Source of the DNA: Synechococcaceae bacterium WB9_2_112
GTDB taxonomy: Bacteria; Cyanobacteriota; Cyanobacteriia; PCC-6307; Cyanobiaceae
Reading direction: 5' to 3'
Length of the DNA: 34,740 bases
Assembly (NCBI GenBank): GCA_010027605.1
Contig: RGUW01000004.1
Span: 1 to 34,740, forward strand
In this document: positions 14,023 to 28,896 of the stretch, in pieces
How positions within the stretch are numbered: the stretch's first letter is position 1
Layout: every line of letters begins with the position of its first letter
The notes under the pieces: model-generated
Seen by the model: the letters and a program-made list of their open reading frames with translations, nothing else
Databases searched by the model: none
What the model was told of the DNA's origin: nothing
Position numbers and translations under genes: made by a program

Positions 14023-15462
14023 TCAGAATTGAGCAATGACCCGTTGCAGGGAGCGCATCATTTCCGCCTCGATAATTCCTGTCTTACGCCGATAGCGGCT
14101 CAGACGCTGCTGGACAATCAATTCAGCCATGTCGGGATCACACTCGCCCCGCAGCTTGACGGCCCCCAGCGATTGAACCCACTCAGCCGGACGATCGATG
14201 GAGATCAATGTCATGTAACGCGAGAAATCACGATAATCAAAAAGCTCCTGATAAGCCTCACAGGTGCTTGCCATCACTGGCAAACCCAGACAGGCCGCAT
14301 CAAGAACAGGAATTCCAAAGCCCTCTAAATGAGAAGGACTTGCCAGCATGCCAGCATAAAGAAACAAGGCCGCTTTCTTCACTTCGTCAACGTAGCCAAC
14401 AAGCCTGACACCAGCAGTCTGTCGGCTAAGCTCTTCAATGCTTTGAGAGTAGGCGAGCTGCTGCTTTTTGCCGACGATACAAAGCTGATAACCCTCAGAT
14501 GCCAGACCCGACTCACCAAATACCCGAATCAGGAATTCGACATTTTTTCGAGGCTCAATGAAAGAGTTGAACAGAATATACTTAAACGGCTTCAATCCCT
14601 CCTCTCCTACGCGCCCCAACAACTCAGTCCGCGAAACATCACCATCAAGCATGGCGAGCGAGGGCCTTTGAAAGAGCACACAGTCAGGCACTCTTTCCAA
14701 ACGACCATTAACCAGTCGCCTGGAGCCAAAATATTCATAAAACAACCGCGACGTCGCACATGAGACAAAGATTCTTTGCGCACTGGAGGACGCGAGGAGT
14801 GTTCGCAGAAATAGATATCGATTGCCGCTACCATAATATTGAAGAGGAATCAAATCATGCACAGTTTGAACAAGCTTGGTTCGCCCAGAGGCCGGCCTGA
14901 TAAACAGCGGGCAAGCCGTGACCAAGAAGTCAAAGCCTTCACAATCAACCCTGAAGGGCTTCGCAACTGGAACCAGGGCAGCAATCTGACTGGCGCGGTA
15001 AAGATTGGGAGCGCAGACAAAACCTGAAACCCGCCGTAGAAAAAACAGACGGTCACTATCCAACCGACCCGGATCACGCAAGTCCTTGAGCTTCAGATAG
15101 CGCATGTCAGCCCGCCTGTAAATGCGTGAGCCGACCAGGTAAGGCACGGAGATCAGAACGCGTTGCACAATCTCAAACAACTTCCTGGCCAGTCCCAACA
15201 GGGCCAGCCGCCCACCAAGCCGAGAAGAAGAAGAAGAAGAAGAAGAGGGATCAAAGAGATCCACCAATCTGTCGATCTCTGCAGATCGATGATCACCATC
15301 AAGATTGGACGGAACTCTGGGTTGCTTTGGCAACGCGAACTGCGTCAGAAGCCAGATCTCGGCCCCAGCCTCTGCAAGACAATGAATCAATCCTTTGGAG
15401 TAAACCGCGATCCCGCGGTGCTCCACCTGCTCTAGATCATACGCAGTGATCAGAATGCGCAT
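14023..15462 (-). CDS. Family 4-type glycosyltransferase
   Basis: QTVHDLIPLQYYG, FNSFIEPRKNVEFLIRVF, SPSHLEGFGIPVLDAACLGLPVMAS are GT4 motifs. Confidence 0.87.
   Translation of the reverse strand: MRILITAYDLEQVEHRGIAVYSKGLIHCLAEAGAEIWLLTQFALPKQPRVPSNLDGDHRSAEIDRLVDLFDPSSSSSSSSRLGGRLALLGLARKLFEIVQRVLISVPYLVGSRIYRRADMRYLKLKDLRDPGRLDSDRLFFLRRVSGFVCAPNLYRASQIAALVPVAKPFRVDCEGFDFLVTACPLFIRPASGRTKLVQTVHDLIPLQYYGSGNRYLFLRTLLASSSAQRIFVSCATSRLFYEYFGSRRLVNGRLERVPDCVLFQRPSLAMLDGDVSRTELLGRVGEEGLKPFKYILFNSFIEPRKNVEFLIRVFGESGLASEGYQLCIVGKKQQLAYSQSIEELSRQTAGVRLVGYVDEVKKAALFLYAGMLASPSHLEGFGIPVLDAACLGLPVMASTCEAYQELFDYRDFSRYMTLISIDRPAEWVQSLGAVKLRGECDPDMAELIVQQRLSRYRRKTGIIEAEMMRSLQRVIAQF
15222..15248. repeat. 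Trinucleotide microsatellite GAG(AAG)7AGG, encoding Ser8 on the minus strand
   Basis: Read directly: gagaagaagaagaagaagaagaagagg; the glycosyltransferase translation has DPSSSSSSSSRLGG. Confidence 0.92.
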
Positions 15463-15537: not shown

Positions 15538-16785
15538 TCATTGAAGCATCCTGACCAGGTTGTCGAGAGCACCAAGGGGAAGGACTTGATCCTCGGCATG
15601 CGGGGTCAGCAGAGATCGCAAGCGCAGCTGAGCGCTGGCAACCTCGTCATCCCCGATCACCGCAACCCAGGGAGCGCCGCTGCGCTCTGCGCGCTTGAAC
15701 TGCTTGCCGAACGCACTGCCACTGGCGTCGCGCTCCACGGCCAGTCCCAGCCGCCGCAGGCCCACCGCCAGGGCCAGGGCGGCCCGCTCGGCCGCCTCAC
15801 CCCGGCTCACCACATAGAGATCGGGAACGGCCGCTGCCAGTGCGCGTGCACCGGATGCCAGACGCTGCTCCAACAGCAGCACCAACCGCTCCATGCCCAG
15901 GGCCCAACCGATCGCCGGCGTCGACGGCCCGCCCAGCTGCTCGACCAGGCCGTCATAACGACCGCCGCCACAGACCGTGGCCTGGGCCCCCAGCTGGCTG
16001 CTGGTGATCTCGAAGGCGGTGTGGCTGTAGTAGTCGAGGCCTCGTACCAATCTGGGGTTGAGCACAACGGGGATGTCGAGCGCGCTCAGCGCCTCCTGCA
16101 CCTGGTCAAAGCGGGCCCGGCTCCCGGGGCTCAGGGCATCGGCCAGAGTCGGGGCGCCGGCCAGCAGAGCCTGGGTGTCGGGGTGCTTCGAATCGAGCAC
16201 CCGCAACGGGTTGGTGTGGATGCGCGCCTGGGAGTCGGCATCCAGCTGGGCGCGATGGGCCTCGAGCCAGGTCACCAGCTGATCGCGGTAGCCGGCCCGG
16301 TCTGCGGGGCTGCCCAGGCTGTTGATCTCGAGGGCCAGAGCACCGACGCCAAGATCGGCCAGCAGATCCCAGGCCAGGGCAATCACTTCGGCATCGCTGG
16401 TCGCATCGGCCACCCCCAGCCACTCGACACCGATCTGATGGAACTGCCGCTGACGACCAGCCTGGGGACGCTCGTAACGAAACATCGGGCCGCCATACCA
16501 GAGGCGCTGGGCCCCCTGGCTCAACAGGCCGTGCTCGATCGCGGCGCGCACCACCGACGCCGTGCCCTCGGGGCGCAGGGTGCAGCTGCGCTTTTTTTTA
16601 TCTAATATCTCTTTCACAAGTTCCCTGGAGTCGATTTTTTCACTCACACGGCTGATTAACTCTTGCGACAAATTACCGAGAAACTCACGTCGAGTTTTAT
16701 TTGCGGATTCGAGAATGCCTCCCAGAAGCTCTTTCGGCAGCTTGAACTCGCTGACCATGCCTCGAAGGCTCTGAAGCTTGCTCAC
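15538..16785 (-). CDS. hisS: Histidyl-tRNA synthetase with the N-terminal catalytic segment replaced (possible pseudogene or chimera)
   Basis: Motif 2 ([19 protein letters not shown]), [28 protein letters not shown] and [14 protein letters not shown] are HisRS. After [10 protein letters not shown] the expected motif 1 region is absent and 54 foreign residues occupy its place. GTG start at 16785. Confidence 0.85.
16591..16752 (-). other. AT-rich, in-frame foreign segment inside hisS
   Basis: Encodes [54 protein letters not shown]. Hand count gives 68/160 G+C (about 42%) for 16591-16750, against visibly GC-rich flanks; poly-T(8) sits at one junction. Confidence 0.8.
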
Positions 16786-16789
16786 CTGC

Positions 16790-18205
16790 TCAGCCCTCGC
16801 CGACGCGCCACACCTTCAAGCCTGCAGCCCTCGCCCCGGCGGCATCGCAGATCGCCCGGGCATCAAACAACCAGGCCGGTTGACGCATCAGTGCAGCCAG
16901 AGCTGGCCAGTCGAGGGCGGCAAACTGCTGCCATTCGGTGAGCACCAGCACCGCATCGGCCCCGCGCACCGCTGCATCGGGCGATGGGGCCACCTGCCAC
17001 ACCCCCTCGCCGCTGAGCCCATGGCCGGACTGGGCCTCCTGGGGGTGCTGGCCCAGATCAAGCGCCATCTGTGCAGCGCTGACCTTGGGATCGAAAATGG
17101 CCAGTTGTGCCCCTTCCTCAAGCAGATCCGCGCAGATGCGGATCGCCGGAGTCTCGCGGGTGTCATTGGTATCGGCCTTGAAGGCAAACCCCAGCACGGC
17201 GATGCGCTTGCCTGTGACGGTGCCGAACAGGTTCTGCACCACCTTGGTGCTGATGCGGTGCTGCTGCCAGGAGTTGAGGCTGACCACCGACTCCCAGTAG
17301 CCCGCCACCTCATCAAGGCCGTAATGGCGACACAGATAGACCAGATTCAGGATGTCCTTCTGAAAGCAGCTGCCACCGAAACCAGGTCCGGCCTTGAGAA
17401 ACTTGGGGCCGATGCGGCTGTCGGCACCGATCGCCCGCGCCACCTCGCGCACGTCGGCACCGGTGGCTTCGCACAAGGCGGCAATGCTGTTGATCGAACT
17501 GATGCGCTGGGCCAGAAAGGAGTTGGCCGTGAGTTTGGAGAGCTCGCTGCTCCAGACGTTGGTGCGCAGGATCCGCTCGGCGGGCACCCACTGCTGATAG
17601 ATCGACGCCAGCGCTTCGATCGCGGCTGGGTCTTCACCCCCGATCAGCACCCGATCGGGGGCCTCGAGATCGCTGATCGCCGTGCCCTCGGCCAGAAACT
17701 CAGGGTTGGAGAGCACCTCAAAACTCTTGCGTCCGGTTGGGGTTTCCCCCTCAGCGGCGCCCAGGATCGTCTTGATCACCGCGGCGGTGCGCACCGGCAG
17801 GGTGCTCTTCTCGACCACGATCGTGTGGCCCTGGGCCGCTGCCGCCACCTGGCGCGCCGAGGCCTCGATCCAGCGCAGGTCGCTGGCCTGGCCGGCGCCG
17901 ATGCCCTTGGTCTTGGTGGGGGTATTGACCGACAGAAAGACCATGTCGGCCTGGGCGATGGCAGCGTCGACCTCGGTCGAGAAATGCAGGTTGCGCCCCC
18001 GGCAACGGCCCACCACCGCATCGAGGCCGGGTTCATACACCGGCAGCCGGCTCAGATCGGGATCGTTCCAGGCGGCGATGCGGGCCGCATTGAGGTCGAC
18101 GACGGTCACCTGAATGTGGGGGCAACGATCGGCGATGACCGCCATCGTCGGACCGCCCACGTACCCGGCGCCGATGCAGCAGATCGACTGAATCGCGTTG
18201 CTCAT
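16790..18205 (-). CDS. UDP-glucose 6-dehydrogenase (eukaryote-like UGDH type)
   Basis: [91 protein letters not shown]. Confidence 0.94.
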
Positions 18206-26131: not shown

Positions 26132-26708
26132 CAGGGTCGAAGCCAGACTGGTGACTGAACCGGAGGGTCAGAACAGGACCATGACAACACAGGAAAGGCG
26201 GCCTTGAACGGAAGCCGCTGCAACCCGGAGTTCATCGCGCAGAGATGGGAACCGGGCAGCATGATGGAGAAACCGGTTGCCATCCAGGCGAACGGGTCAG
26301 GCCAGATGTTGTTGCTGAGCAAAGTGTGACACAAACACCGACCTACGAGCGCCTGCAGACATCTGAATCCCTGAAAGAGCCGTGCAGCCGGAACACAGGC
26401 CGAACAGGCGCGGCAAGCTCAGCGGCGGTCAATCTGACAATCCGCGGCGCGAATGGCATCCAATGTCATGCGCGCGCAAGCAGATCACGCAATCCTGATC
26501 AATACACTCCGTGGGAAGGCATTCTTGACGCAGTTTTAGAAGCGGATTTAGACTCAGTACTCAAGATCAGATCTCAAGATCCAGCCGGACCGCCAACCGC
26601 AATGGCAATTGCACGATCCATGGCAATGTCAATGGCCATAGCCGCACCCGGCAGAACGCCTCAAACCAAGATTTTAGTCGGCAAAAAATACCAAGCAGGG
26701 TGAAATTT

Positions 26709-27959
26709 ATGAGCAACAAAAATAGCCCTGTTCAAATTGCAAAAAGCATCAGGTCAGCCATCCTCAATGTACGTTACAAGATTGAATACCGTCTGTCTAC
26801 AAACTACGCGTATGCCTGGCACAGACTCAAGGGAGGCACCACACGTTCAAGGCTACTGAAGCATCAGGAATGCAACTGGCATACCAGCCAGCGGCCATCT
26901 CTCTCAAATCCCGATCGTCACGCCATCTTTGTTGCTTATCACCCTGGCAGAGAAGCGCCTCAAAGCAACATCAACTACTTGCAATCACTCGTCAACTGTG
27001 GTTTTCAGGTCACCTACATCCACAACGGGCCTATTGATGCCACGCAGCGAGCACCAGTGGAGAAATTCTGCACACAGGTGATTTGCAGAGAAAACATCGG
27101 CCAAGATTTTGGAGCCTGGAAGGATTGGCTACTGGATGGACTCCTACAGCATCGGCTTCAAGATATTGAATGGCTCTTGCTTTGCAATGACAGCAATTTT
27201 TTCCTGGCAACAAACGCGCAAGCCTTCGAAAAAGAGTTTTCGGCTGCGCTGTCAGACGACACGATTGACCTGATCGCCCTCAACAAAAACCTTGAGATTT
27301 CACCCCATTACCAATCCTATTTTATTTGCTACCATCGACGACTTTTCCTTCAAAAAGGCTTCACAAGGTTTTGGCGTCACTACAAACCAATTTCCAATCG
27401 CCATCACGCGATCATCAAAGGCGAAATTCAGCTGACAGCGCAAATCACGGGTTTTGCAAAAGCCAAAATCCTATACAACTGGCCAGATCTTTATATTCAA
27501 CTTTCGCACATCACACCCAAGAGATCTGAGTTTTATAGCCTTCTTCCCAAGGGCTGCATGTATCTTTCGCGACATTGTTCAGATCACAGCCTGGCAGATG
27601 AAGCAATCAACAAGATCGAGCTTCACAAGGCCTTCATGGTTCTTGAGCTTCACAATCCATCCCACGCTCTTGCTCTATTGTTTGCCAGATATTGCAGCTC
27701 TCCATTTCTCAAGAAGGACATCGTCAAACATGGCTGTTATTCGATAGCGCAGATCACTGAACTTCTCACGAGCATCAATATCGAAAGGAATTCAAAAGCT
27801 TGGCTGGAAATCATTGATCATTATATCCTTACTGGCAATAATGCGAGCTATATCAATCGTCCCAAAGAGGCTTACCAGCAAGGAGTCCCTGTTCGCGGCC
27901 AGCAATTCAGAGGACACGGAGAGCTGATGACCGATCTGGGGCTAACCCTCGATGCCTGA
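26709..27959 (+). CDS. Rhamnan synthesis protein F (RgpF)-like protein
   Basis: HAIFVAYHPG...INYLQSLVNCGFQVTYIHNG...CRENIGQDFGAWKDWLLDGL...LLLCNDSNF, RgpF-like motifs. The window ORF opens at 26700; ATG 26709 (MSNKNSPVQI) is likely. Confidence 0.72.
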   Translation: MSNKNSPVQIAKSIRSAILNVRYKIEYRLSTNYAYAWHRLKGGTTRSRLLKHQECNWHTSQRPSLSNPDRHAIFVAYHPGREAPQSNINYLQSLVNCGFQVTYIHNGPIDATQRAPVEKFCTQVICRENIGQDFGAWKDWLLDGLLQHRLQDIEWLLLCNDSNFFLATNAQAFEKEFSAALSDDTIDLIALNKNLEISPHYQSYFICYHRRLFLQKGFTRFWRHYKPISNRHHAIIKGEIQLTAQITGFAKAKILYNWPDLYIQLSHITPKRSEFYSLLPKGCMYLSRHCSDHSLADEAINKIELHKAFMVLELHNPSHALALLFARYCSSPFLKKDIVKHGCYSIAQITELLTSINIERNSKAWLEIIDHYILTGNNASYINRPKEAYQQGVPVRGQQFRGHGELMTDLGLTLDA

Positions 27960-28896
27960 AGCCAACCACATCATGAGAGGCAGTCGCACAATCCACCCAA
28001 GACCCGTGAAACAACGGCAAACAATTCATATTTTAACCGTCAATTACTTCAGCTCTCTTCTCGTTGCCGAGCTTCTTGAATCCATTCAGGAGCTGGGAGA
28101 CGAATCGATTGAAGTTGTGATTGTCGACAATTCACCGAATGATGAAGCGCTTGATGAATTGACCAATCAATTCAAAGCCACAATCCTGAGGCCAGCGAAG
28201 AACCTTGGCTTCGGCGAAGGATGCAATTTCGGCCTGCGCTATATCCACCATCAAGATCGATCTGCAGTTGTCTGGCTTCTGAATCCTGACACAAATCTGC
28301 TCCCCAATGCCACAACAATCATCCGCAATGCGCTCAAAAATCCCCCCTATCCGGCAATCCTAGGAACCTGCATCAATACTCAATACGGCAAATCATGGTT
28401 TCGCGGCGGATCCTTTAATTCCACGCTTGGTCTGATTCCAGATGGGAATCGACACAAACGCCAGAAGTGGATCTCCAATGCAAGCATTTGCGAGCCTTCT
28501 CAGTGGGTGAGCGGCTGCAGCATGATTCTTGATTTGAGCAAGTTCTCCGACGTCCCGTACTTCGACAAAAACATATTTCTTTATTACGAAGACGTTGATT
28601 TATGCCTCAGGCTCGCACAACAAGGACACGAAACCTACGTCACCAATGCGGTGCTGGTTGAGCATGCCGTCTCTGCAACCACCGCAAAAAATCCACAGTC
28701 GATGTTTCGCCATGCAACCTTCAGCAAGCTCTATATTTTAAGCAAGCACGCGTCGCGTGTCGCAGTCGCCATGAATATCATCTATTTCACGGTTCAACCA
28801 TTGCTTGTTCCTCGCGGACTGTCCCATCTCAAAGGCCGTTTGCAGGGAGTGATGGACTTTCTGAATCTCTGCTTCAACAGCGACAGGCAGCACTGA
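27952..28896 (+). CDS. Family 2-type glycosyltransferase
   Basis: HILTVNYFSSLLVAELLESI...VVIVDNSPNDE...NLGFGEGCNFGLRY...WLLNPDTNL...NIFLYYEDVDLCLRLAQQG; GT2 rhamnosyltransferase-like. Confidence 0.88.
   Translation: MPEANHIMRGSRTIHPRPVKQRQTIHILTVNYFSSLLVAELLESIQELGDESIEVVIVDNSPNDEALDELTNQFKATILRPAKNLGFGEGCNFGLRYIHHQDRSAVVWLLNPDTNLLPNATTIIRNALKNPPYPAILGTCINTQYGKSWFRGGSFNSTLGLIPDGNRHKRQKWISNASICEPSQWVSGCSMILDLSKFSDVPYFDKNIFLYYEDVDLCLRLAQQGHETYVTNAVLVEHAVSATTAKNPQSMFRHATFSKLYILSKHASRVAVAMNIIYFTVQPLLVPRGLSHLKGRLQGVMDFLNLCFNSDRQH

Follow-up and report, generated by a model that had tools for sequence, protein, structure and literature searches.

Histidyl-tRNA synthetase (HisRS), the product of hisS, is an essential and normally single-copy enzyme, and in class II synthetases motif 1 forms the dimer interface. 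A metagenome contig, for its part, is expected to represent the commonest genotype. Chimeric contigs of short-read metagenomes bring two unrelated parents together in fragmented, multi-strain bins, at a point of local similarity and more usually through one join. In the natural transformation of Acinetobacter baylyi, short segments are replaced by double illegitimate recombination (Hulter and Wackernagel 2008, cited in PMC7371106). Here, we describe a hisS gene that resembles both of these systems. It lies on a complete 34740-base contig (C224; hereafter the window) of a picocyanobacterial genome bin (G000; 2.35 Mb in 460 contigs, completeness 73.4%, contamination 2.3%). The locus shares with chimeric contigs its two unrelated parents, its fragmented multi-strain bin and a join at local similarity, but differs in that it has a pair of in-frame joins with 160 bp between them. 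With the process as outlined in PMC7371106 it shares a short foreign segment in place of a native one and microhomology at a join, whereas the case in the window is known from assembled sequence only and destroys an essential gene.

The hisS open reading frame as assembled (15538-16785, reverse strand; 415 codons) encodes a normal N-terminus, then 54 residues that are not HisRS, then normal HisRS, with the frame intact at both joins. The native 5' end (16753-16785, reverse strand) is the same as that of a congener, G005, at 32 of 33 nucleotides. It is followed by a foreign block of 160 bp (16593-16752, reverse strand), which stands where 187 native bp, with class II motif 1 among them, would be expected, and then by the native remainder of the gene (15538-16592, reverse strand). 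The initial annotation had described an AT-rich foreign module standing in frame where motif 1 should be, and this description holds: 63 native codons are lost and 54 foreign codons, at 42.6% G+C against 64.8% for the window, have taken their place. Its coordinates for the replacement (16588-16785) do contain the block, but they also take in the normal 5' end of hisS.

Outside the block, everything that characterizes HisRS is kept. The protein scores 384.8 bits against TIGR00442 over residues 49-395 (cut-off 286.75), although the match begins only at profile position 53. Motif 2, the histidine-binding motifs RGLDYY and GGRYDGL, and motif 3 (GWALGMERL) can all be read in the translation and were aligned to solved HisRS chains, and the C-terminal anticodon-binding domain is likewise present (PF03129, 42 bits against a gathering score of 21). 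In an alignment to solved structures, the 63 residues that the protein lacks fall at about positions 12-74 of the E. coli enzyme (1htt); they hold motif 1 and the GEVTDVVEKEMYTF stretch. The motif 1 sequence EIRTPLLE is absent from the hisS of the window, and it or a close variant occurs in the hisS of relatives that have the N-terminus on the contig. Judged from these losses, a cell with the chimeric hisS as its sole copy should not be viable.

The nearest hisS among congeners, that of G005, is intact (86% protein identity) and carries, opposite the 54 foreign codons of the window, a stretch of 63 codons that reads DLLPQQ at its start. The window is collinear with a single contig of this congener to either side of the block, at 91-92% identity over the few hundred bases beside the borders, and in the DNA comparison only 16593-16752 is left unmatched near hisS (160 bp against 187 bp in G005). 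Most of the remaining 34.7 kb is also collinear, at 80-93% identity in collinear stretches, and the block is the sole one of its kind that this comparison found inside a conserved gene on the contig. We therefore reject the idea that the contig was joined from two unrelated contigs. A UDP-glucose dehydrogenase-like gene (16790-18205, reverse strand) lies directly upstream of hisS, with a matching upstream end in congeners, where such a gene also ends just ahead of hisS; because of this conserved position, the hisS of the window is an orthologue and not a paralogue. The block thus replaces a short stretch of the orthologous gene; it marks neither a second, paralogous copy of hisS nor the seam of a contig made of two halves. 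Had the module belonged to a wider HisRS variant, relatives should share it, but in a search of 59 same-genus, same-family and same-class genomes the module was absent, and the motif 1 region normal, in all 28 hisS N-termini that could be read, which upholds the reading of the block as a replacement. A divergent native N-terminus was likewise rejected, given the normal congeners and the block's 90.7% identity to Bdellovibrionales DNA.

Other parts of the contig also depart from its base composition. Next to hisS, a glycosyltransferase-like gene (14023-15462) has low G+C (about 50%) and encodes a run of eight serines (SSSSSSSS). Two AT-rich glycosyltransferase-like genes at 26700-28896 include 160-bp stretches down to 39-46% G+C on a contig of 65% G+C; because they are conserved with the congener, the pair is probably an older surface-polysaccharide acquisition.

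The foreign block can be traced to a specific parent. When genome_contigs, which may omit records close to the genome of the window, was searched with the module, five genes were recovered, all of them in Bdellovibrionales-type metagenome-assembled genomes (MAGs). In the best match (JAGWZD010000213.1, from MAG REEB505), all 54 residues are identical. At the nucleotide level, identity is 90.7%, with 15 base differences, 13 of them at third positions; 14 of the 54 codons differ, and every one of these differences is synonymous (14 synonymous, 0 nonsynonymous). The homology to the source spans 176 bp and ends at both joins. Of 55 genomes from the order to which the source belongs, none offered a closer match than REEB505. 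The initial annotation had tentatively proposed a likeness to the start of small proteins from deltaproteobacteria-like genomes, which came close as to the organism; the module, however, is the interior (about residues 36-89) of an uncharacterised Bdellovibrionales protein of ~104 residues. Because divergence from the parent gene is synonymous only, the block was under selection as a native Bdellovibrionales protein until very recently, with no sign of adaptation to hisS; such a pattern would not be expected of a domain that had been at work in a new protein for some time.

This small protein (~104-108 amino acids) is conserved in Bdellovibrionales/Bacteriovoracaceae, where it has no significant Pfam match. 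The 54 interior residues are 100% identical to the version in L038 (4048-4315 region) and 81% identical to that in L039 (4854-5222), whereas the window lacks the protein's first ~35 and last ~15 residues. In both of these genomes its gene lies just downstream of what reads in translation as an SRPBCC/polyketide-cyclase type gene. An origin in a mobile element or phage was considered and rejected, as we found no phage or plasmid match to the module and no significant Pfam, NCBIfam or PHROG family.

The two joins differ in character. At the 5' join (16753-16770, reverse strand), hisS reads AGCCTTCGAGGCATGGTC and the Bdellovibrionales gene AGCCTGAAAGGAATGGTC; 14 of the 18 bases are identical in this chance resemblance, ATGGTC exactly so. 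The frame is kept here because the resembling stretches encode SLRGMV and SLKGMV. At the 3' join (16586-16597, reverse strand; AAAAAAAAGCGC), the window reads GATAAAAAAAAGCGCAGC and the parents GATAAAAATGAGATCG and GGTGAGCGCAGC. Microhomology is clear at the left join and weak at the right. Two bases at the 3' join, AA rather than TG, are found in neither parent, hisS or Bdellovibrionales; a sequence error would explain them, as would a source strain that has not been sampled.

Two more partial hisS genes are present in the bin, on contigs C19 (L065:4394-5098) and C383 (L003:611-1024). Both are cut by contig ends, and they show 67% and 64% protein identity, respectively, to the gene in the window. 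These pieces suggest that the bin combines several strains or species, and by sequence comparison the hisS genes in it seem to come from three or more picocyanobacterial lineages. Two other candidates for a second hisS were set aside, one (on C280) because we read it as the HisRS paralogue HisZ and the other (on C425) because it looks like a distant class II synthetase. An intact hisS was not found in the bin, which is 73.4% complete, so the earlier suggestion of real recombination alongside a second intact copy is left unsupported there. When the neighbouring genes of the source were compared with the bin, no other Bdellovibrionales sequence was detected except a weak 67% match on C1.

Both parents, the borders of the block and the collinear flanks are established, and two parents of different phyla meet at abrupt borders. 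We consider it very probable that the 160-bp block is a chimera of library preparation or metagenome assembly and not a new protein, as the initial annotation had already ranked first. In vitro or in silico, part of the Bdellovibrionales gene, whose source was probably a co-occurring organism in the sample, would have been linked into the hisS path of the picocyanobacterium at a 5' point where the two genes chance to share sequence (AGCCTnnnAGGnATGGTC), with a return to hisS at CGCAGC; the living cell would carry a normal hisS. An artefact is the most likely origin because hisS is essential, the contig should reflect the commonest genotype, the bin is mixed and fragmented, and the left join falls at a chance similarity. 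It is implausible for the prevailing genotype to be one in which an essential enzyme is destroyed. Counting against a chimera, one foreign molecule is needed at both ends within one gene, the bin yielded no further Bdellovibrionales sequence beyond the weak match on C1, and two in-frame joins would arise by chance in about 1 in 9 cases; this chance lowers our confidence only modestly.

Double illegitimate recombination in a living cell would yield an identical anatomy: a cyanobacterial cell would have taken up Bdellovibrionales DNA, and 160 bp of it would have replaced 187 bp of hisS through end microhomology. The microhomology at the left join and the clean, in-frame borders fit such an event, and the process itself is reported from natural transformation of Acinetobacter baylyi (PMC7371106). 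It is nevertheless an unlikely, minor explanation here, because an essential enzyme would be lost and there is no second occurrence: the assembled genotype should be the commonest, yet motif 1 of a normally single-copy enzyme is gone; the module was absent from the 28 hisS N-termini read in relatives, and in genome_contigs it turned up in Bdellovibrionales-type genes only. Such a lineage would have to survive on an intact hisS that escaped assembly, a copy not found in the bin, or else the sequence would be a dead-end variant. Somewhat less likely again is a real and very recent inter-phylum replacement in which DNA of predator Bdellovibrionales entered a picocyanobacterial hisS and the chimeric HisRS is expressed in a living population. 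We regard as highly improbable the proposal of a functional, repurposed HisRS-like protein that has gained a new interaction domain in the helical module. Its reading frame is open, and motif 2, motif 3 and the anticodon domain are all retained, but the synonymous-only divergence, which shows no evolution of the module in a new context, contradicts it, as do the orthologous position behind the UDP-glucose dehydrogenase gene and the lack of the module in any relative read.

A real event would give direct evidence that DNA from a predator had entered an essential gene in a different phylum by recombination. As a probable chimera, the locus offers a clean case of a metagenome bin presenting an open, in-frame and seemingly new architecture that is patched from two organisms. 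A check for divergence that is exclusively synonymous between patch and parent gene, as seen here, can be used to screen further cases of seeming domain exchange in bins of this kind.
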